DNA from: Multifurca ochricompacta | Lineage: Eukaryota; Basidiomycota; Agaricomycetes; Russulales; Russulaceae | Reading direction: 5' to 3' | DNA: 64,000 nucleotides | Assembly (NCBI GenBank): GCA_022496185.1 | Contig: WTXG01000002.1 | Location: forward strand, 1,364,001-1,428,000 | Part shown: in pieces, positions 3,508 to 39,868 of the stretch | How the letters are laid out: each line of letters starts with the position of its first letter | How positions within the stretch are numbered: position 1 is the stretch's first letter | Program-made: the position numbers and the translations under genes | Notes under the pieces: model-generated | Databases searched by the model: none | What the model was told of the DNA's origin: nothing | What the model saw: only the letters and a program-made list of their open reading frames with translations

Positions 3508-4000
3508 CAGTAGCCCACAAAACTGTTCCAATGTTTGGCCACCCTGAAGAGATTGACCTACCACACAATGAGAATAATTTCCAAATTTAGTAGAAATTAG
3601 TAGATGATAGTGTAGCATCTAAGCTTCAATTAGAGCCTATAATAATGTCAATTGGATCAGTGGTTCATGATATATAAAATGTTTTGTGAGGCATTATCAT
3701 TGGAATGGTTTTGTGGCCAACATGTGAGATGACAAAACTGGTATCTGGTGGTCATGGGAATGCATTGACAGTCATGTGACAATGTTTAATAAGTTGAACA
3801 CACACCAAATAATCATCAAGAACACTTGCTTCTTACCATGCATGCCCTCTCTGCTGCCAAAAGGACTCACATCATCTCCCTCCTCACTTCAGGCAAATCT
3901 GCCCATAAAGTGTCAACTATGACTGGCCATGGCACTGTTATCATCTCCAGATGTGTCATAAATACTGCCCTTACCATCCCAAGTCAAATGGAGGGAGACC
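3508..4000 (+). mobile_element. Tc1/mariner-like element Tc1-1, end half with transposase HTH remnant
   Basis: The fragment starts after TA with CAGTAGCCCACAAAACTG, a Tc1-type terminal repeat. An inverted version of this sequence (ccattggaatggttttgtgg type) lies at about 3698-3718, giving a 210-bp fold-back subterminal unit. Bases 3838-4000 encode the first helix-turn-helix of a Tc1 transposase (AAKRTHIISLLTSGKSAHK). The fragment ends at the Copia-1 insertion, with target duplication agacc at 3996-4000; its continuation begins with the same agacc at 35584 on the minus strand. The catalytic domain is absent. Confidence 0.75.
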
Positions 4001-4258
4001 TGTTGACATGGTATGTGTCTTGAGGTGCTTCAGGCATCTAGGTTAGGGTCTAAGCTGTGCAAGATTAGATTAGATACTGATTTGGAGTTTCAGACTTTTT
4101 ACCATATCATTATTACTTTCTTTCTTGTGATGCGCAGCAGCTGACTGATGTACCTTAGTAATCCTGTATAGCATGTGATATCTCATCAGCCAATGGCCTT
4201 TGTCCCTCAGTAGTATATTCCAGTGCATTCCATTGCACACAGACCATCCCTTGAGTAG

Positions 4259-4292
4259 TATATAAGGGTGTCTGTTTCATCTCTTACACTTC
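4259..4292 (+). promoter_or_regulatory. Copia-1 core promoter: TATA box and predicted start
   Basis: TATATAA lies at 4259-4265. The start is predicted at 4292, 27-33 bases downstream, because the leader copy at 4404 begins with exactly the sequence that starts at 4292. A perfect 11-bp hairpin (acacttcagag / ctctgaagtgt) spans this start. Confidence 0.6.
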
Positions 4293-4315
4293 AGAGTTTT
4301 CTTCACCTCTGAAGT

Positions 4316-4371
4316 GTAAGTCCCTTCTACATTACTTTCTACTTATACCTTTGACTAACCACTCTCTGTAG
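4316..4371 (+). other. predicted intron 1 inside Copia-1 LTR
   Basis: 56 nt with donor GTAAGT (4316-4321), a gactaac branch site near 4353 and acceptor CTGTAG at 4371. Removing it joins 4292-4315 to 4372-4387, and that 40-nt product is present, identical, at 4404-4443. Confidence 0.75.
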
Positions 4372-4387
4372 ATAACTTGTCTTTTAG

Positions 4388-4443
4388 GTCAGTAGTATAG
4401 TAACAGAGTTTTCTTCACCTCTGAAGTATAACTTGTCTTTTAG
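4388..4443 (+). other. predicted intron 2 / spliced leader copy inside Copia-1 LTR
   Basis: 56 nt with donor GTCAGT (4388) and a strong acceptor cttgtcttttag (4443). The interval contains the 40-nt copy 4404-4443, which equals exon 1 (4292-4315) plus exon 2 (4372-4387). Removing both introns gives a leader whose sequence is identical to 4404-4500, so the LTR can regenerate itself. Confidence 0.65.
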
Positions 4444-4498
4444 CCTTACACGCTAAACATCCAACAGTCAGTATCACTGCGCACACATGCCTGTTTAT

Positions 4499-4512
4499 CA
4501 GGTTATGGGCCC
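4499..4512 (+). promoter_or_regulatory. Copia-1 primer binding site (initiator-tRNA anticodon type)
   Basis: CAGGTTATGGGCCC spans the LTR edge. From memory, the complement of the eukaryotic initiator tRNA-Met anticodon loop is GGTTATGAGCCC, which matches with one mismatch in 12. This is the half-tRNA priming known for Drosophila copia and yeast Ty5. Confidence 0.55.
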
Positions 4513-5435: not shown

Positions 5436-6198
5436 ATGGCTAACATCGTTTTCCCTTCCACCTTCAAATTCGACAAGCTCGATGGGTCCAACTGGCCACA
5501 GTGGTCGGTATCTTTTACCGTCCTGTTGAGGATAAATGGCATGAGAAGGCACATCACACATGATGGGCCTGAATATACCAATCCCCCGATCCAGAAGGAT
5601 GATGAGAAGGAGGCGGACTACCAGGCAAGATTTGCCGCCTGGACCGAACCCATAATCCAGGAGTGGAATAGGGTTGAAGAAGTATTGATGGGGTTACTAG
5701 TGCTGGTCGTTACCAGCGAAGTTTATTCTCAGGTTGCCTCTGACAGGAAGTATCCGTCAGTCTGCTCAAAATATGAGCAGCTGGAGTCCTTATATGGCAC
5801 TGTGGGTAGCATGGCCACCTACAATTTGTGGTGCTCAGTTTCGTCCTTCCGTTTGGAGGAAGGCAAACAATTTAGGCCCCAATTGCAGCGTGTGCTAGAT
5901 GCTAGGAATACCCTGAAGGAGAATGGGATGGAGGTCTCTGACCTCCAGATGAGCTTTATTTTGCTCCAATCCCTTCCCCCATCATACAGTGCCATTGCTG
6001 GCTCAATCCTGGCTTCAGGTCCCCCTGAATGCCTTTCCCCTCAGGACCTCATTCAGAGGTTCCTTAATGAGGAAAGCTGACTTGCCGGCCCCGCAGGAAG
6101 TGGTGTTGGGGCTGCCCTTAACAAGGCAGCCCATGTCAACAAAAATAAAAATAAAAAACAAGTACAATTTATCACGCCACAACCTGCAGGTGCATCAT
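5436..6198 (+). pseudogene. gag: Copia-1 Gag, 5' part (interrupted)
   Basis: It begins ATGGCTAAC and encodes a UBN2/retrotran-gag type Gag (FDKLDGSNWPQWSVSFTVLL near residue 14; LLQSLPPSYSAIAGSIL near residue 180). One in-frame TGA at 6078-6080, probably a former CGA, is followed by an open frame to 6198. There the reading frame continues precisely at 39863 on the minus strand: the codon split between the two sites gives Leu, leading into the CCHC zinc knuckle. The 5 bp atcat (6194-6198) is the target duplication of the Gypsy insertion; its partner is 39868-39864. So this half belongs with 36220-39868. Confidence 0.85.
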
Positions 6199-6791
6199 TG
6201 TTACAATCCCTGCCGTCTGCTCCCATTTTCTTCACTCTTCCCAATGATGACCCTTCTTTACCACCTACCTTACACTTCCTGATCACGTCTCCATCCTGGG
6301 ACCCATCCCGTGCCCTTCTTCTGTCCCCGTGACCCTGATTGTACTTGTTGACCTGTTGTTTGCCCATGATTTGACTCTCGTCTCCTTATCTCTTATCTCG
6401 CTATCTTTACGACCGGACACTTACTTAATACCCTATCAGAAGCCAGGCTTTACGCCCTCCGCTTCCGTATATTTGGGCCCACTTGACTCCGATATCTTAT
6501 CTTATAGACGCCCACTGGATTACATATATAAGTCTGCTGTAGCTACTCTGTAGACCTCAGACTCGACTTATTGAATACATCGGTGCTTGTCTTCTGGACA
6601 TCCCTTTGGACGCTTGACTCGACCCTCTCAAGTGCTTCTGGCACTTTCCGCTTAACATTGTCTTCAAGTACAGCCTTGTCGACTTTGACTCCTTCCATCT
6701 AAAACTCCAAGGGATCCCATTGGTCCCTTATCTGATCACAAACGAACGCTGACACACAAGTCGTGTGGAACGTCCCGCACCGGACGTAACA
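6199..6791 (+). repeat. Gypsy-A 5' LTR
   Basis: From TGTTACAATCCC to GGACGTAACA. TATATA lies at 6525-6530. AGACTCGACTT at 6559-6569, about 30 bases downstream, is the predicted RNA 5' end and is complementary to the primer site. Confidence 0.93.
6525..6569 (+). promoter_or_regulatory. Gypsy-A TATA box and predicted RNA 5' end
   Basis: TATATA at 6525-6530 precedes AGACTCGACTT (6559-6569) by about 30 bases. The start is inferred from that spacing and from the complementarity to the primer site; no transcript data are available. Confidence 0.6.
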
Positions 6792-6793
6792 TC

Positions 6794-6804
6794 AAGTCGA
6801 GTCT
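6794..6804 (+). promoter_or_regulatory. Gypsy-A self-priming binding site
   Basis: AAGTCGAGTCT, 2 nt after the LTR, is the exact reverse complement of AGACTCGACTT at 6559-6569. I see no tRNA 3'-end complement (no TGG start). This arrangement is that of yeast Tf1, where the first 11 nt of the RNA fold back as primer. Confidence 0.7.
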
Positions 6805-6810
6805 CCCATC

Positions 6811-8322
6811 GTGGCTTCCAGCCGCAGTCAGACCCTGTTTAAAGAAGAACTCATTGAACGCAGAGACGAGAATAATCTTTCACAGCAAGTACTTGGCTCT
6901 GCCGCCTGGAAAGATTTTGAATCCGAGTTTGGATACTACGTCTATCACGACGGAAGATACCAGCCGGTAGAATACGACGACGAGAAAAGAGTTTGGTATC
7001 GTATCCGATATTCGGATAGTCGAAACTCTTGGGTCACTACAGGACCCGCTCTGCCTGAATTTGGATTAGGGCCGTGGAGAGAGAATCCCCCAGCCATTGT
7101 TACGGACTCTGAACCAGAAGAGTACGTAGAAGAAAACAGCGAAGAAGCACTGGTATTAGCGTCGACTACAGCCCCAGTTGCACCCGGAGTTGTCACGATC
7201 AGAGCTCCTGCTTTGACAACCCCCCAGATCTCCATACAGTCCACAAACACTATCACCCCATTTTACCAAAACATGTCCACAATCGCCGCTCAACTTCCGG
7301 ACCCCGTTCCTCCACCTCCAGCTCCAGCCATGTTACCACCAAACATTCCCCCACCCTCTGGACGCCTATCAGGGGTGCTGCCACAGACATTCGCAGGGGA
7401 TCGTTCACAAAGCAAGAAATTCATGCTAGAGTTTACGACATTTAAAAACTTTAACCATGACGTCCCCCAAATAATCAATCCTTTCCAACACGCCAACCTC
7501 TTCCTCTCTCTGATCCGAGGGGAGGCCGTAGACGACTGGACCATGGAGCAGCTGGAGTGGCTGAATGAACAAATCGAGAGTGGGCGTCACACCACTAGCG
7601 AGGGGCTTTGGGAAACCATTGCTCAGCGGTTTAAAGACGCATATACGGATGGACAGGCCAAGCAGAAGGCCGCTCGAGAACTCAAGTCCCTGAAAATGGA
7701 AAAGGGAGAACTAGACGCCTATGTCGCCAAGTTCAGGAGCCTGGCCAACAGGGCAGGGTATGATACCGATGAAGAGGCGACATTAGACCTCTTTTCCCAA
7801 GGATTGCCCAACCCGCTGGTCAAGAATATCATCCAGTTCCACCACCCTCAGGACTGGGATGCATGGGTTGATGCTGCCCGACGACAGCAACAAGATTACT
7901 TGGACTTCCAAACACGCTTTGGAGTTGATACAAAGAAAGGGAAAACACGAGACCAGTGGAAGGCAGCTTTTGGGGTCAAGCCCGTACATGCTGCTCAGCG
8001 CGACCCAAATGCCATGGACACGTCAGCAGACAGGACCCGAGCCAGGGCCACGCTTACTGAGGATGAGCGACAAACATTGATGAAAGAAGGACGGTGCTTT
8101 CGTTGCAAAGCACAAGGACACATGTCACGGGAATGCCCGAAGAAGGGGGCGCGAGCAGCTGAAGCCACAACTGCTCCCATACGCAACAACCCACCAACCG
8201 TCGAAAAGAAAACGCCGACAAAAGAAGAAAAGGCACAGGAGATATGGGCCAACATGATGAAGGAGAGTGAAGAAGTGCGGGCCATTCTAGTGGAGAAGGC
8301 TTTCGCAAAAAAGGATTTTTGA
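6811..8322 (+). CDS. gag: Gypsy-A Gag
   Basis: 503-codon frame. Order: an N-terminal region; a Pro-rich linker near residue 160-185; a retrotransposon Gag core (FMLEFTTFKNFNHDVPQI; DDWTMEQLEWLNEQIESG) from about residue 205; and one CCHC zinc knuckle CX2CX4HX4C at residues 429-442. The frame has no stop, but its first codon is GTG, and an in-frame TAA lies at 6787. Gypsy-B has ATG at the homologous position, while C, D, H and I also have GTG. Initiation is therefore uncertain; the first internal ATG is about 150 codons in (MSTIAAQLPDP). The final codons overlap pol. Confidence 0.85.
   Translation: MASSRSQTLFKEELIERRDENNLSQQVLGSAAWKDFESEFGYYVYHDGRYQPVEYDDEKRVWYRIRYSDSRNSWVTTGPALPEFGLGPWRENPPAIVTDSEPEEYVEENSEEALVLASTTAPVAPGVVTIRAPALTTPQISIQSTNTITPFYQNMSTIAAQLPDPVPPPPAPAMLPPNIPPPSGRLSGVLPQTFAGDRSQSKKFMLEFTTFKNFNHDVPQIINPFQHANLFLSLIRGEAVDDWTMEQLEWLNEQIESGRHTTSEGLWETIAQRFKDAYTDGQAKQKAARELKSLKMEKGELDAYVAKFRSLANRAGYDTDEEATLDLFSQGLPNPLVKNIIQFHHPQDWDAWVDAARRQQQDYLDFQTRFGVDTKKGKTRDQWKAAFGVKPVHAAQRDPNAMDTSADRTRARATLTEDERQTLMKEGRCFRCKAQGHMSRECPKKGARAAEATTAPIRNNPPTVEKKTPTKEEKAQEIWANMMKESEEVRAILVEKAFAKKDF
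8299..8322 (+). promoter_or_regulatory. gag-pol -1 frameshift region
   Basis: In the gag frame the sequence reads GCA AAA AAG GAT TTT TGA. Pol is open in the -1 frame through this point. A slip on A-AAA-AAG or on T-TTT just before the stop would fuse Gag to Pol. The GAT TTT TG portion is conserved in B, C, D, H and I, whereas the A-run is not. Confidence 0.5.
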
Positions 8323-11300
8323 TTGGCTCAAACCCATCGGCCTGGGCACGAGCACTCCATGTAACCTCTGTGTATACTAGTCGCTTCAAATCTTTGAAAA
8401 TACCAGTACACTTTGAAACCACACAGAGAACGGCCGACCGTGACATCCTGATTGACTCAGGGGCCACAGATAACTTCATTAGTCCACGGATGGCAAGGAC
8501 CATGGGACTGGGGATGCTGGCACTCCCCCAGGAGAAGAACATCTGGAATATTGACGGAACTGCTAATCGAGCAGGAAAAATCACGCACTACACTGACCTC
8601 AATGTCCAAGTGGGGGAAAGAACGAAGGTCATCCGCTTTCTAGTCACCAATCTAGGCGAAGAAGATTTAGTTCTAGGATATCCCTGGCTCGCCGCATTTG
8701 AACCAAGAATCAACTGGGGAGATGCAACCATGGACAAAGACTTTTACCCTGTTCTCATCACGTCGATAGGGTACGATTATGCCATTCGACATTCGGCGAA
8801 CTGCAGGGCAGACAAAGAGGAAGAAGATCCGGGTTACTGCTTCACTACCAAGGCATCAGAACTCGCGCAGAAGGCAGTAGAGGGGCATACAGAAAGGACT
8901 TTTGAGGAGGTCGTGCCAGAAGGGTATCATCGACACTGGAAGGTATTCTCTGAGGAGGAATCTCAACGTTTTCCACCTGCACGACCCTGGGACCATGCCA
9001 TTGACTTCACACCCGACACCCCGTCCGCAATTGATTGTAAAATCTATCCATTGTCACAAGTAGAACAAACTGCGCTTACGACATTCCTTGAGGAACATCT
9101 GGCAAAAGGGTATATTCGTCCATTGAAATCACCATATGCATCGCCGTTCTTCTTTATCAAAAAGAAAGACGGCAAGCTTCGACCTGTTCAGGATTATCGA
9201 CGAATAAATGCCCACACTGTGAAGAACGCCTACCCCTTGCTGCTCATTTCGGAACTCATTGATACCATGCGGGATAAGTCCCTATTCTCTAAAATGGATG
9301 TCCGCTGGGGCTACAACAATATCCGGATCAAGGAAGGAGACCAATGCAAAGCAGCTTTTAAGACCAATCAGGGGCTCTTTGAACCGAATGTCATGTTCTT
9401 TGGCCTTACCAACTCACCCGCCACTTTCCAATCAATGATGAATCATATCTTCCGCGATCTTATCCTCACGGGCGAAGTAGTGGTGTACATGGACGACATA
9501 TTAGTGGCCACTACCAACGACCTAGCCCATCATCGAGAACGAGTACACCAGGTGCTAGACATCCTGCACGAACACGATCTGTACCTCAAACCAGCCAAAT
9601 GCTCGTTTGAACAATCGAGTGTGGAATACCTAGGAGTTATCCTGGAAGGAGGGCATGTGCGGATGGACCCAGTAAAAGTACAAGGAATCCGGGAGTGGCC
9701 CGTACCCACGTGCATCAAGGATGTGCGGTCCTTCATTGGATTCTGCAACTTTTATCGGCGCTTTGTCCGTGGATTCTCAGGCATCGCCCAACCATTGAAC
9801 GGATTATTAAAGAAGGACGTACCCTGGCATTGGGCAGATGAACAACAACAAGCCTTTGAGCAGATCCGAGACATTGTCGGTTCAGAACCAGTCCTCTTAC
9901 AGCCAGACCTAGAGAAACCCTTTGAGCTTGAAGTTGACGCTTCCCATTTCGCCAACGGTGCCGTACTCAACCAGCGGGATGCAACAGGACTACTTCACCC
10001 AGTTGCCTTCTACTCAGAAACATTCTCGCCAGCAGAACGAAATTACGATATTTGGGACAGAGAGCTACTAGCTATTGTAAAGGCACTACGACATTGGCGA
10101 CCATACCTAGCGGGAACCCCCCATAAAACCATCATCCATACTGATCACTCCAACCTGCTCTACTGGAAAGAACCCCATAAAATCAGCCGACGAGTCGCTC
10201 ATGAAGTTCTAGAGCTCGAAGAATATAACTTTGTGTTGAAACACATCGCGGGAAGCCGTAATGCACGAGCAGATGCCCTGTCTCGGCGACCAGATTTAAA
10301 CCATGGGGGGGAGGACAACAATGATATCACAGTACTCCCTGAAGAAGTCTTCACAAGAGTAGCCGTCGTCAGCCTCCACGACATGGACTTATGGGCCCAG
10401 GTGTCACAGAACATGAACCAGCAGTTATGCCAATCATGGGCAGAGGCGCATAATCTGAAGAAGATTGATGGACTGTGGTGGAAGGACGGGGATCGACTCG
10501 TTGTCACTGGTGGCGACAACATTAAGAGGGGGGTGATCCATTTTCACCACGATCTTCCCTCTGCAGGACATCCAGGCATTGCTAATACCTACGCACTTGC
10601 CAAACGAGACTACTGGTGGCCAAACATGAAAAAGGACGTGGAGGAATATGTAAAGGGATGTGCAGATTGCCAAGCCAACAAAGTGAATACGCACCCACAC
10701 CCACCAGCACTATTCCCCATTACACCAACAGCGTCACAACCATTCCAGACCATTGCCATGGATTTCATCGTCAAACTCCCCACTTCCAGAGGCTTCGACT
10801 CCATCCTGACCATCACTGATCAGACTGTTCGAAAGCGGCACTGTTCATACCATGCAATGAGTCCATCACAGCAGAAGGAGTAGCCAAACTCTACCTGGAT
10901 CACGTCTACAGACATTATGGCCTCCCGGAAAAAATCATTTCAGACCGTGACCCACGCTTTACGTCCACATTTGCCAGGGCCCTCTGTAAAACACTGAACA
11001 TAACCCAAAACATCTCGACGGCCTATCATCCACAGACAGATGGACAATCAGAAAGGACAAATCAGTGGCTCGAACAATATCTTCGGTTCTGGTGCAATGG
11101 ACGACAGGACGACTGGGCTGACTGGCTAGCGACGGCAGAATTCGCACACAACTCTTGGCCCAATGGCACCACAAAAAACTCTCCATTCTCACTTATCATG
11201 GGATGGACGCCTCGAGCCACGTGGACTGGAAAGCCAACGAACGTTCCCTCAGCCACACAGCGTATCAGCCAATGGGAAGAGATCAGGAAATCAGCCAATG

Positions 11301-11800
11301 AGAACCTGTTGAAGGCGCAAAGAACCCTAGCAGAGAAGCCCTCGAAGTTCACACCTTATCAGACCAATGACTTGGTGTGGCTGGAAGGAAAGAATGTTCA
11401 CACGTCACATCCAACAGCCAAGTTAGCGCCCCGACGTCACGGACCCTTCAAGATAACAAGGAAGCTGTCAGATGTGTCATATGAACTCGAACTTCCCCCC
11501 ACATGGCGAATCCACCCAGTCTTCCATGCCAGACTGTTGACACCGTACAGAGAGACATCTCTGCATGGGGAAAACTTCCCTAGACCTCCCCCTGAATTAA
11601 TCGATGGAGAAGTGGAATGGGAAGTGGAGCGGATTCTAGACTCCTCACGTAAAGGCCGAGGGCGCAAGCTACATTACCTCGTTAAGTGGAAAGGATTCCC
11701 AGACTCAGACAGCTCGTGGGAACCAGCCGGGGATATCTTTGCTCCGGTCCTTATCTCAGAATTCCACGCCCGACACCCGGAAGCGCCCAAGAACAGTTAA
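8319..11800 (+). pseudogene. pol: Gypsy-A Pol (protease-RT-RNase H-integrase-chromodomain), one frameshift
   Basis: Read in the -1 frame after gag. Domains: aspartic protease (DSGAT, Asp at residue 46); reverse transcriptase (YMDD at residue 390-393); RNase H (VDASHFANGAVL, HTDHSNLLYW); integrase with an HHCC finger (HHDLPSAGHPG ... CADCQANK); a DDE core with D in AMDFIV, D in SDRDPRF and E in GQSERTNQ; and a C-terminal chromodomain (WEVERILDS ... LVKWKGFPDSDSSWEP). A one-base deletion at about 10821, relative to Gypsy-B, shifts the frame inside integrase. The rest (10823-11800) is open. Without the indel the protein would be about 1160 codons. Confidence 0.9.
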
Positions 11801-19930: not shown

Positions 19931-20443
19931 TGTCAAACAATCATGCTGCTGGTTACACTGACTCTGGTTAGTAGCGTGTTAGGCTAAAAGACAAGTAGTG
20001 CTTCAGAGGTTAGAAGAACTCTATACAACTATACTACTGACCTAAAAGACAAGTAGTTTACAGAAGACGGTTAGTCAAAGGTAAAAAGAAAGTATAGTAA
20101 AAGGAACTTACGCTTCAGAGGTTAGAAGAACTCTGAAGTGTAAGAGATGAAACAGACACCCTTATATACCCATGGGGGCCAGGGGAAATGGTCTGTGCAC
20201 ACTGGGAATAAGTCCACAAGTGCCAGACAATAAACAGAGAGGGATAAAGGCCATTGGCCAGAGAGATATCACATGCTTACTGCGCATTACTAAGTCCATC
20301 ACTAATCAGCTGAGTAAGGTGAGAAAGAAATGTAATAAAGATAACATAAAAAGTATGATACTCCGAGATCTAATCTGATCTAATCTACAGCTGAAGCGAA
20401 CCTTAGATGCCTGAAGCATCTCCAGACACATCCTGTGTCAACA
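19931..20443 (-). repeat. lone Copia-type LTR with decayed leader intron
   Basis: 513 bp on the minus strand, related to the Copia-1 LTR. It repeats the same architecture: TATA near 20163; exon 1 at 20134-20112; intron 1 at 20111-20058 (GTAAGT ... now ending TAA instead of TAG); exon 2 at 20057-20042; intron 2 at 20041-19984 containing the spliced copy 20022-19984, identical over 39 nt to exon 1 plus exon 2. Flanks agttg and gcccg do not match, so it is not a simple solo LTR. Confidence 0.7.
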
Positions 20444-20719
20444 GCCCGGTTCGAGTCTTTGAGACTGCTGCTAGCATTGGCTGCGCTAGAGGATTGGGAG
20501 ATCCATCAAATGGATGTCAAGTTGGCGTTCCTGAACGGACTACTGGATGAGGAAATCTATATGGAGCAACCGGAGGGTTTCATCACATTGGGCCAGACGA
20601 ATAAGGTATGCCTACTCAAAAAGGCAATTTATGGACTCAAACAAGCCTCACATGCATGGAACTTGCAATTCCATGGAGTTCTATTGGAGCTTGGCTTCAC
20701 ACACACTTTCTCTGATGCC
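20444..20719 (+). pseudogene. pol: Copia-2 reverse transcriptase, N-terminal part
   Basis: It encodes ARFESLRLLLALAALEDW, DVKLAFLNGLLDEEIYMEQP and IYGLKQASHAWNLQF, which are classic Ty1/Copia RT blocks. It is interrupted after FTHTFSDA by LTR-E with target duplication atgcc (20715-20719 and 31328-31332). The frame resumes at 31328. Confidence 0.85.
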
Positions 20720-33874: not shown

Positions 33875-34567
33875 CAGTAGCCCACAAAACTGTTCCAATG
33901 TTTGGCCACCCTGAAGAGATTGACCTACCACACAATGAGAATAATTTCCAAATTTAGTAGAAATTAGTAGATGATAGTGTAGCATCTAAGCTTCAATTAG
34001 AGCCTATAATAATGTCAATTGGATCAGTGGTTCATGATATATAAAATGTTTTGTGAGGCATTATCATTGGAATGGTTTTGTGGCCAACATGTGAGATGAC
34101 AAAACTGGTATCTGGTGGTCATGGGAATGCATTGACAGTCATGTGACAATGTTTAATAAGTTGAACACACACCAAATAATCATCAAGAACACTTGCTTCT
34201 TACCATGCATGCCCTCTCTGCTGCCAAAAGGACTCACATCATCTCCCTCCTCACTTCAGGCAAATCTGCCCATAAAGTGTCAACTATGACTGGCCATGGC
34301 ACTATTATCATCTCAAGATGGGTCATAAATACTGCCCTTACCATCCCAAGTCAAATGGAGGGAGACCAAGGAAGCTGACAGAGAGAAATGCTCAGCATGC
34401 TGTTTGCCTTATCTCCTCTGGCAGGGCAGACACAGATGTGGAAGTGACTAGAGCACTTCAGAAGTTGTTAATGGGTTCCTCTATCAACATAATATGCCCA
34501 TCCATCCTCCCATCAAGTTTTCAAGCCATAACTGGCCCCTCCCATATCATACACCCCCATTCCATCA
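33875..34567 (+). mobile_element. Tc1-1, second arm with transposase DNA-binding remnant
   Basis: It starts CAGTAGCCCACAAAACTG after TA (33873-33874) and repeats 3508-4000 nearly base for base. It then continues past the Copia-1 insertion point (agaccaaggaagctgac at 34366). It encodes AAKRTHIISLLTSGKSAHK and then, in another frame, GGRPRKLTERNAQHAVCLIS, the two helix-turn-helix parts of a Tc1 transposase. There is no catalytic domain. Confidence 0.75.
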
Positions 34568-35584: not shown

Positions 35585-36074
35585 TGATAAACAGGCATGT
35601 GCACGCAGTGATACTGACTGTTGGATGTTTAGCGTGTAAGGCTAAAAGACAAGTTATACTTCAGAGGTGAAGAAAACTCTGTTACTATACTACTGACCTA
35701 AAAGACAAGTTATCTACAGAGAGTGGTTAGTCAAAGGTATAGTAGAAGTAATGTAGAAGGGACTTACACTTCAGAGGTGAAGAAACTCTGAAGTGTAAGA
35801 GACGAAAAGACACCCTTATATACTACAAGGATGGTCTGTGCGCAATGGAATGTGCTGGAATATACTACTGAGGGACAAAGGCCATTGGCTGATGAGATAT
35901 CACATGCTATACAGGATTACTAAGGTACATCAGTCAGCTGCTGCGCATCATGAGAAAGAAAGTAATAATGATATGGTAAAAAGTCCGAAACTCCAATCAT
36001 ATCTAATCTAATCTGCACAGCTTAGACCCTAACCTAGATGCCTGAAGCACCTCAAGACACATACCATGTCAACA
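35585..36074 (-). repeat. Copia-1 3' LTR
   Basis: 490 bp, partner of 4001-4500. The leader architecture is the same: exon 1 at 35790-35768, intron 1 at 35767-35714 (GTAAGT ... CTGTAG), exon 2 at 35713-35698, and the spliced copy at 35681-35642. Here exon 1 lacks one T relative to the copy. It is preceded by a purine tract (catggaggga). Confidence 0.88.
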
Positions 36075-36219: not shown

Positions 36220-39200
36220 TCACTCTCGAGGTCGACAATATGGACACTTCTGTGCCACATTGAGGTCGACAATATACTCATATAAGACCAAGTTAGTAAC
36301 CATGTTTTCATGTGACGCTCTTGGTAGAGACTTTGTGAAGCCATCTGCCAGCATTTCACCAGTGGGAGTTCGCACTAAATCGATTAGATGCGATTCAACA
36401 TACTCCCTGATTGCATGGTACTTTATTGGTATGTGTTTTGACCGCCTTCCTGTGACAGGGTTCAATGCCAAGTCTATGCACCTTATTGTCACAATGGAGT
36501 TGAATGGGTGAAGTGACTTCATATCCCAATTCCTCCATAAACATCCTATACCATGCAGCCTGATTAGAAGCCTCAGCTAGGCTCATGTATTCAGCTTCTG
36601 TGGTGGACTGTGCTACAGTCTTTTGCTTTCTAGAGCACCAGGATATGGCTCCATTTGCTAGCATATAGATGTAGCCTGAAGTAGAGTGGCAGTCCTCTTG
36701 ATCTCCCCATGAGGAATCTGCAAAGCCATGAAGGCCACTCTCTTCATTCCCTCCAGAATATCGCACCCTGTAGTTCATAGTAGCATTAAGGTACTTTAGA
36801 ACATACTTTGCTAGGCGCAGATGATGTTGTGAAGGATTGGAAGCATATTGACTAAGGCGCACAACAGCAAAACTAATGTCAGGTCTGCTTCCAATCTGCA
36901 CCCATAGCAGTGACCCCATTAGCTGTTGGTACTTCTTTATTTCTGAAGTAGATGCCTGGCCTTCAAACTTGACCAGATGTGCATCCACGCTGGCTGGTAG
37001 GGGAGTGTATACTGGATTGGAATCCCTCATCCCAAACTTCTCAAGAATAGACGAAACATAAGCTGCCTGATCAATTTCCAGTGTCTTGTTAGGACAATCT
37101 CTGGTGATGTTAACACTGAGATATGACTGGATTTCTCCCAAGTCAGTCATCTCATATCGGCTAGATAGAGATTCCTTCAGCCATGTTATCTTATCTTTTG
37201 AAGATCCAAGTATAGTGATGTCATCAACATATAGAATGACGAAAAGTGAATCATCCCCCCATGGTGATGATACACATATACTCCTGCATCAGAGTACGTC
37301 CGAGTAAAGCCCAGTTCATTAAGAACTGCATGGAATTGTAGATTCCATGCTTGGGAAGCTTGTTTGAGGCCATATAATGCTTTTTGTAGCCTACAAACTT
37401 TGGACTCTTGTCCAGCAATGATGAAACCAACAGGTTGCTCCATATAAATCTCCTCATCCAAATCGCCATGAAGGAATGCCGATTTGACATCCATCTGGTG
37501 GATTTCCCAATCTTCTAGCGCAGCTAACGCTAGTAATAAACGAAGTGATTCAAATCTGGCAACTGGGGAGAATGTTTCATCAAAGTCCACTCCTTCTATT
37601 TGAGTGAAACCTTTTGCCACGAGCCTGGCACGAAACTGTCCATCTGGTTTCAGTTTAAAAACCCATTTAGACTTGACTGCCTTTCTTCCTTCTGGAAGAC
37701 TTTCAAGGCACCACACATTTAGCTTATCTAAAGCATCAATTTCATATTTGCATGCTTCAAGCCATTCAGCAGCATTATCAGACTGCATTGCCTCCTGAAA
37801 GGTCAGAGGGTCTCTATAAGAGACACCGGCGGCATTTAGCAGTTCCATGGTCCCAAGCCTGGATGAACCTTGCACAAACTCTGCATTATCCTCATTGTAA
37901 AAACGAGGATTCAGACGACGTGATTGTTTTGGCATAACAATATCAAGATCTAAATCTTCTTGTATAGCCATGGATCGTCGTTCAGAGCGTGGACTTTCCC
38001 TAGTAAAAACTGGTTGGGAAAGTTTGCCTCTAGCCTTTTTTGTTGACTTTCTAACAGCACGAGTTCTGGTGGGGAGTTGGGAGGGTTCCATTATTTGGGA
38101 CGGTGGTGTCTGATATATGGTGTCTGTGTGTGTGTCTATTTCATTGTCAGGTGTGGTAGGCTCAGGATTTATTTGAGGAGGCTCCACTACCTCCTGTTCC
38201 TCAACCTCGGTATCCTTATACTCAGGATCCTGAGGAACTGTGGCTATTGCTGGTGAGGGTTGGACAGACCCTCCTTCAACTGGAACAGCTTGTTCCTTTC
38301 TTTTATCTCTGTTGTCCGCTACAGAGTGGGATGGGAAGGACTCTTCATTAAACATCACATCTCTGGACGAAACAAAGGACCGGGTATGCCTATCCCATAG
38401 GAGGTAGCCTTTGCTATTTGGCTCATACCCAACAAAGACGGCTTTTTTGGCTTTAGGATCCAGTTTTTGCCACTTGTTTTCCGGAACATGATAATATGCT
38501 TCACAACCAAAGACTTTAAAATAAGAGACATCTGGTATGTCCCCAACCAGAAGCTCTAGCAGTGTCCTCCACTTATTAGAATGGATGGGAGTTCTGTTAT
38601 ATATGTGACATGCTGTAGAAACAGTGCACTCCCAAAAGCCAAGAGAAAGCCCAGCATGATGAAGCATACTGGTGGCTTTTTCCATTATTGTTCTATTGAA
38701 CCTTTCAGCTCTTCCATTCTGTTGTGGGGAATATGGCATCGTGAGTTTATGCTCTATGCCCGCCTCACTTAACAAGGACTTCAGTTCATTATTGACGTAT
38801 TCGCCACCACAGTCTGTGTGTAAGGTCTTTATTTTGTTATTTGTTTTGTTTTCTAAGAATGCCTTAACACTTGCAAAGACCAATTTGAAGTAATGTTTTG
38901 CTTTCATTGGAACAACTATAGCACTGCGGCTAAAGTCATCTATGAAAGTGGTGAAATATAAGTTCCCTTGTATTGAGGTACATTGGAGTGGACTGACTAG
39001 GTCACTATGAATGACCTCTAAGGATGCTGAAGCCCGCTTATGAGAGGGAGGGAAAGGAAGGCGATGGGACTTTCCCATTTCACAGCCATGACAAGGCTTT
39101 ACTTCCTCTTGGCTATTCTTCAAACTGAGACCCTTTACGGCCTCAGGAGCATATCTTTTTAGGGCTTGTTTAGACATGTGGCCCATTCTGAGATGCCAGG

Positions 39201-39868
39201 TATCAAGGCTGGTTGATGCAGTATTTAAGGCAGTGGTTGTTTTATCCACTATAGCCCCTTGGATCCAGTAGAGATCCCCAGCCTTGATTCCTTCCACTAT
39301 TCTTTGTCCTTTATACTCTATTGCGACATTGTATTGATCAAATAAGACCATACCACCTCTATTTGTGATATGACTTGTTGATAAGATGTGATTTCCTGCT
39401 GATGGCATGTAGAAAACATTATTAATTTCCAATATATAGTTTTTATTGGTCCTTATGTGAACGCTTCCTACTCCTTCTATTGGGACCATGGTTCCATCCG
39501 CCACTGTTACTGTATGTCCCGAATGAGGCAGATATTCATAGAAATCTGACTCAAAGGGTGTGAAGTGGGTGGTGGCACCACTATCCATCATCCAGGCAAA
39601 TCCATCATCTTGGAAGACTTCTTGAGTCGCATTCAAAGTATAAAGTTTAATGTGAGGTGTCTCATGCACCTCCTGTATTCTTCCACTACCATTAACTATT
39701 GTAGCTACTTGGTGGGAAGATGATGGTACACTGGCGCCTTGCGCCTTCCTCTGGTTGCCCTTTTTGCCAGCAGCAGCATTCTGCCGATCCTGTTTCCTCT
39801 GCTGACATTCATTTGCCTTGTGGCCCGGCTTCTGGCAGTAGAAGCAAGTGACATCATTGGACAATGAT
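36220..39868 (-). pseudogene. pol: Copia-1 Gag end and Pol (protease, integrase, RT, RNase H)
   Basis: Minus-strand continuation of 5436-6198. From 39864: CCHC knuckle CFYCQKPGHKANEC (residues 7-20); protease DSGAT (Asp 94); integrase finger H224, H229, C258, C261; integrase core D288 (HSDLVSP), D351 (HTDCGGEY), E387 (GRAERFN); RT from about residue 700 (FKLKPDGQFRARLVAKGFTQ, YGLKQASQAWNLQF). A one-base change in a run of six C at about 37255 shifts the frame just before YVDD. RNase H (ADSSWGD, TTEAEYMSLAE) is in 37150-36395. A second shift at about 36483 precedes the TPTGEMLADGFTK end. The first shift could be a sequencing error. Confidence 0.88.

Follow-up and report, generated by a model that had tools for sequence, protein, structure and literature searches.

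How does a long terminal repeat (LTR) come to hold, side by side, an intron-bearing leader and the exactly spliced form of that same leader, and what keeps the two alike? This question is raised by a Copia LTR in the window, the 64,000-nt stretch of contig WTXG01000002.1 of the fungus Multifurca ochricompacta analyzed here (forward strand, positions 1,364,001 to 1,428,000). A preliminary description of this DNA had noted that 4292-4315 joined to 4372-4387 equals 4404-4443, and we found this to hold for every letter, with the match ending on both sides. Equally borne out were the 56 nt that separate the exons, which start with GTAAGT, end with CTGTAG, and carry CTAAC at 4355-4359. The order of parts in the window LTR is U3, exon A, the 56-nt intron, exon B, a linker (J), the spliced copy of both exons (A'B'), and U5 (Table 1).

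Layout of the LTR and the elements around it

The copy had been described as beginning at 4292; its left edge does fall at about the predicted start of transcription, although most relatives begin at A4293, with 4292 and 4404 as the −1 positions. The equal 56-nt length of the two predicted introns is a coincidence of the window LTR; intron 1 ranges from 49 to 57 nt in 107 relatives. A 14-bp perfect inverted repeat (4283-4296/4307-4320) spans the presumed start and extends over the initial bases of the intron-1 donor, and parts of this repeat are kept in relatives. The motif that follows the LTR, GGTTATGGGCCC, we take to be a primer binding site (PBS) of the half initiator-tRNA type. As a search sequence, the PBS (CAGGTTATGGGCCCTG) has 651 matches in the genome, and in 366 of these the exact J core lies 85-115 nt 5′ of the site.

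Table 1. Positions of the LTR parts and associated features in the window.
Feature	Positions	Strand	Remarks
Copia 5′ LTR	4001-4500	+	500 bp, TG...CA; BLAST alignment with 36074-35585 ends at 4001 and 4500, 96.2%
TATA-like box TATATAA	4259-4265	+	34 nt 5′ of A4293
Exon A, first copy	4293-4315	+	23 nt; A4293 is the presumed transcription start, with C at −1 (4292)
Predicted intron 1	4316-4371	+	GTAAGT...CTCTGTAG; CTAAC at 4355-4359
Exon B, first copy	4372-4387	+	Can also be read as pyrimidine tract plus AG
Linker J	4388-4403	+	First bases are the donor-like GTCAGT of intron 2
Predicted intron 2 (J-A'-B')	4388-4443	+	Donor GTCAGT; B' ends in AG
A'B'	4405-4443	+	Equals exons A and B joined without intron 1; the variable −1 base is 4404
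U5	4444-4500	+	Follows B'; CA end adjoins the PBS
Putative PBS GGTTATGGGCCC	4501-4512	+	Directly 3′ of the LTR
Copia gag ORF	5436-6080	+	PF14223 Retrotran_gag_2, E 3.8e-12
Third LTR, more distant	19972-20444	−	77.9%; own leader; copy equals the spliced exons exactly; intron ends in TAA
Second LTR of the family	35585-36074	−	Adjoins Copia pol; 96.2% identical to 4001-4500 over 500 bp
Copia pol ORFs	36395-39864	−	Next to LTR 35585-36074

The LTR at 35585-36074 has the same structure, with an exon A that is one T shorter than in its own copy. In the minus-strand Copia copy next to it, the integrase precedes the reverse transcriptase (ORF 37186-39864; rve at residues 280-380, RVT_2 at residues 716-867). 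The best matches bearing organism names for pol residues 60-480 of this ORF were those from Trametes and Rhodofomes, in keeping with an agaricomycete origin. A search of viral contigs gave 0 matches. In the one element that was checked for a target-site duplication (C248), both LTRs are identical over 502 nt and flanked by TTAAC on each side.

The Copia element in the window is broken by a Ty3-type element at about 6120-11800, which has a Retrotrans_gag domain in 6811-8322 and an RVT_1 pol in 8319-10883. Between 4001-4500 and 36074-35585, all nine listed substitutions lie at CG, TG, or CA dinucleotides, a signature of CpG decay, and three times they form adjacent TG-versus-CA or CA-versus-TG pairs. 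The 100 bp 5′ of the LTR (3901-4000) are 97% identical to 34268-34367, 30 kb away, so the insertion target was itself repeated.

Agreement between the two segments across the genome

One genome (53.8 Mb, 605 contigs) was searched, and LTRs were gathered by similarity and by patterns. Parsing required CACTTC before the first copy together with the exact J core and demanded no likeness between the two segments; with identical sequences counted once, this gave a sample of 110 LTRs, the window's three among them. LTRs without both anchors (a truncated first copy or a changed J) fall outside the scored set, including three in which the first part is broken or replaced (L075, L088, and L099); the additional rows of a looser parse, which had 10-17 mismatches, were mostly chance occurrences of J-like sequence not located in these LTRs. 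The second segment equaled the first minus its intron exactly in 91 of the 110 LTRs, with one mismatch in 15, two mismatches in 1, and a one-base indel in 3. In one case scored as a single mismatch (L003, the same as L010), the actual difference is a one-base deletion that a shifted split had accommodated. Removing the three LTRs with a one-base indel between the copies (one of which, L034, has an additional mismatch) leaves the set of 107 referred to throughout. Genome-wide, a pattern composed of J, the junction, and the start of the copy had 1244 matches in the 53.8 Mb versus none for the reversed control, which, along with the co-variation of the two segments across LTRs, argues that the arrangement is not due to chance; by pattern, the family comprises over a thousand LTRs.

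The 91 exact LTRs hold 51 different leaders (A occurs in 17 forms and B in 39), so at least 54 joint changes must have occurred, assuming no recombination inside A or B. Variant cells in the leader agree between the two copies of one LTR in 680 instances and disagree in 17; of the latter, 10 concern the first copy alone and 3 the second alone, and in 4 both copies differ. The mean edit distance of a leader to its own copy is 0.16, versus 5.67 to the copies of other LTRs, with 0 of 2000 shuffles reaching the observed value; the own copy was joint nearest in 103 of the 107 LTRs, and the copy of another LTR was nearer in 4. The preliminary description had regarded independent divergence of the two segments as an outcome that would speak against it, and the opposite was seen: on a tree built from U3 and U5, 369 changes fall on the same branch in both copies, out of totals of 383 (first copy) and 377 (second copy), and 15 of the 22 unshared changes fall on tips. 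Because LTRs belonging to a single element do not count as independent and recombination between LTR types affects the tree, the event count is inflated here, while the agreement between copies is not. Two LTRs lying 8 kb apart (L063 and L067) have a mismatch in common, with B ending in TAT and the copy in TAG, which could, under the model set out below, be a mutation of that very cycle.

Among the LTRs are 32 pairs with identical introns (e.g., L004/L031 and L006/L039), in which the last 60 nt of U3 differ by a mean of 11%, the first 50 nt of U5 by 17%, and the exons by 3%; either the LTR parts reassort, therefore, or the intron is under constraint. In L117, the U5 tail is tandemly repeated at the LTR end, a feature absent in the near-identical L118.

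The left edge of the likeness lies at +1 in 89 of the 107 LTRs and at −1 in 18, and on the right the match reaches the GT donor of J, which the parser sets as the end of B, with the next base differing in 107/107. One LTR (L013) has a T inserted right after the intron-1 TAG, and its copy has that T as well; several LTRs end exon A with C in both copies. The base before the first copy is C, as the anchor requires, and is C in LTRs found by BLAST as well; before the second copy it is T in 81, C in 18, A in 5, and G in 3 (n = 107). These edges are those that a spliced RNA starting at A4293, 34 nt past TATATAA, would have. The preliminary description had placed the TATA box 27-33 nt before 4292; counted from A4293, the distance to TATATAA at 4259 is 34 nt.

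The splice signals were similarly regular for intron 1, which starts with GTAAGT and ends with TAG in 101 of the 107 LTRs (the other six have single changes or shifted splits), and which carries CTAAC 8-35 nt from its end in 102 of 107 versus 5.4 in shuffles. For the predicted intron 2, J starts with GT in 110/110 (GTCAGT in 72, GTGTGT in 33, and others in 5), a GTNNGT donor is likewise present in 110/110, its last GT belonging to the selection anchor, and B' normally ends in the AG that would serve as the acceptor. CTAAC occurs in 51 of 107 versus 2.3 in shuffles and is absent in the other 56, which counts against the model. Overall, a copy that tracks the exons of its own LTR through many changes, and does so with exon-exact edges, requires repeated copying from spliced RNA.

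Explanations for the spliced copy

Judging from the sequences of these LTRs, the R region of this Copia family is probably split by introns in the DNA and usable only after splicing, with the spliced copy rewritten as the element moves. The start site, the second splicing, the 3′ end, renewal in nearly every cycle, and annealing in preference to end-joining are what we infer beyond this. In the mechanism we propose, transcription would start at A4293, and the RNA 5′ end, as the copies suggest, would lose 4316-4371 and 4388-4443 to give A-B-U5-PBS, with the splicing of intron 2 taking linker J and A'B' out of the RNA 5′ end. This doubly spliced 5′ leader would be the true R. Minus-strand strong-stop DNA would copy U5-B-A and then transfer to the RNA 3′ end, where A'B' would be retained unspliced and would most likely serve as the annealing site, with about 39 nt of pairing; extension of the minus strand would next take in J, B, intron 1, A, and U3. 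In this way, the RNA 3′ end would give the new LTR back its intron, and the RNA 5′ end would supply a newly spliced copy. Since the intron survives, an unspliced RNA 3′ end must be the source of the remainder of the LTR; if that RNA reaches into A'B', pairing can extend over all 39 nt, resulting in the LTR that is observed. The preliminary description's view of the second copy agrees with these data, in that it behaves like cDNA of the LTR's own twice-spliced leader and the state is self-renewing. We consider it reasonably likely that the repeat for the first transfer is absent as such from the 5′ part of the DNA and from the primary transcript and is made by splicing that is obligatory at the 5′ end and avoided at the 3′ end, and that each transposition rewrites the leader cDNA and restores the intron, the exons acting as master and A'B' as slave, so that these LTRs record start choice and splicing.

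The preliminary description had differed on how the cDNA is attached: the RNA would end near 4403, and spliced-leader strong-stop DNA would be joined there without homology in each cycle. Such end-joining would account for the copy and its edges equally well, and the junction before the copy is indeed variable, with 25 forms among the 107 LTRs that differ in sequence and length between subfamilies and with a core that ends in A in 101 of 107, as remnants of RNA ends might. However, exon A at the RNA end would offer 23 nt of homology, which should win and give U3-A-B-U5, and LTRs of that form are a small minority; this scarcity leads us to disfavor homology-free joining near 4403. The junction cores are, moreover, inherited, being the same in 0.89 to 0.92 of pairs with introns 0 to 4 edits apart, though a fixed cleavage site could give that too. 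The −1 base is less stable: among 43 close pairs (not independent of one another), it differs in 9 and the whole core in 7, compared with 0.028 at other sites. Two insertions with different flanks (L012 and L016) have a sole difference over 801 nt, the −1 base (C versus T), so this base most simply changes at transposition. It is replaced and not added, as would happen if a primer end paired with a copy already in place, and a primer end from RNA starting at C(−1) would give this difference; a later mutation in L016 or L012 could also be its source. Spliced-leader cDNA as the source of the copy is supported; joining without homology near 4403 is less supported and, in our judgment, unlikely.

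Exchange at the DNA level, by gene conversion or unequal crossing, would keep the segments alike in a more conventional manner, given that they are close direct repeats, and some losses of an interval in single LTRs could be DNA deletions. It would nevertheless need tracts of about 23 and 16 nt that end at splice sites around an unmatched intron of about 55 nt, through at least 54 changes, and should have moved or erased the intron of the first copy, an outcome for which the A-B-J pattern gives 0 matches; we regard it as very improbable. Hardly credible at all is a single ancient event that made the copy, after which inheritance and selection on both segments (e.g., shared factor binding) would have kept them equal. 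The LTRs examined do have a common layout, which may itself have arisen once, but matching indels and substitutions occur in both copies across the 51 leaders, some without obvious function, and shared ancestry cannot alter both segments together. The data from relatives contradict this account, as variants recurring in both copies of the same LTR are incompatible with a single old duplication.

Annealing of about 39 nt of spliced-leader cDNA to A'B', our preferred reading, would account for both the rule and the U3-A-B-U5 exceptions. A single round of reverse transcription normally suffices to remove introns. An intron-less A-B followed by J had no genome matches (the pattern requires TTGT within B as well as an exact J core), as expected if the reverse transcriptase uses templates with both introns spliced at the 5′ end and intron 1 kept at the 3′ end. 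With this pattern at 0, tandem growth by singly spliced leaders and intron-1 splicing at the RNA 3′ end were both rejected. The U3-A-B-U5 pattern had 111 matches; a hand count of the 100 listed gave 45 with normal introns (GTAAGTT) and 55 without an intron, corresponding to at least 54 intron-less places (one row was duplicated). The intron-bearing first copy had 1571 matches, by a pattern that differs in strictness from the U3-A-B-U5 pattern. The 19 intron-less cases that were fetched all have the order U3-A-B-U5, and their exon forms vary. In three instances, two such LTRs bound a single element, judging by a spacing of about 5.9 kb and by the PBS that follows one of the two, and they are 98 to 99.3% alike, so that in these elements the intron was lost during reverse transcription; solo U3-A-B-U5 cases may be DNA deletions. 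J-A'-B' alone is missing in 4 LTRs.

Several further candidates were tried. Of cDNA fragments with a free 5′ end, none was present among 30 fetched loci (of 81 places): in 28, the copy follows J (25 with an exact and 3 with a changed core), in 1 it follows U3 (intron-less), and in the remaining locus the copy is cut by another insertion. Genome patterns for poly(A) remnants, as marks of the RNA 3′ end, gave 0 matches after the copy and 0 after J. Pairing with U3 that would hide the intron-1 donor in the 3′ LTR gained no support, in that folding did not tell real from shuffled U3: the donor had a mean unpaired value of 0.47, falling to 0.27 with U3 and to 0.32 with shuffled U3, and a drop of more than 0.3 was seen in 28/103 LTRs with real U3 versus 23/103 with shuffled U3.

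Relation to known systems

The intron in these LTRs occupies the most exposed spot of the element, the 5′ leader that is copied first, yet has more than 1500 pattern matches in one genome, and a division of roles between the two ends of one RNA is the best account of its persistence. In this family, nature provides an assay of a retrotransposon's first strand transfer, transcription start, and splicing that can be read from sequence; how the same sequence is spliced at one RNA end and kept at the other becomes a testable question. No account of an R that is spliced or split, or of introns in the R regions of Copia LTRs, was found in open-access full text, searched partly by narrow phrases and partly among the matches listed, with most subscription papers outside this coverage.

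In common with Ty1/Copia elements, the family has the coding genes gag (PF14223), rve, and RVT_2, with the integrase before the reverse transcriptase, as well as TG...CA LTRs, a 5-bp target duplication, and a PBS adjoining the LTR. It departs from them in an R that is interrupted by an intron in the DNA and in a spliced second copy of R inside the LTR. The single continuous R between U3 and U5 is not present here, which lowers only the designation as a typical Copia LTR. Penelope-like elements keep introns in their terminal repeats through retrotransposition; unlike these, the present family has an RVT_2 Copia pol, and the Penelope reverse transcriptase and route of integration differ.

Splicing of element RNA, predicted here, is also a property of the LTR elements Ogre and EVADE, whose introns, according to a review, serve subgenomic RNAs (PMC12786077). 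The present family differs in having both donor and acceptor in the LTR and in the spliced form being copied into the next LTR. Both of its predicted introns end inside the LTR, before gag, which does not fit a subgenomic or gag-pol role. A splice donor in R is shared with foamy viruses (PMC3185757). Unlike in the foamy virus arrangement, there are here two complete introns within the LTR and a spliced copy stored in the DNA, and the acceptors of the stored copy lie inside the LTR in the parse of relatives. Finally, an RNA lariat has been proposed for strand transfer in Ty1 (PMC1266399), similarly tying splicing-type chemistry to the first strand transfer; in contrast to that proposal, the LTRs described here have ordinary GT-AG introns with exact spliced products.
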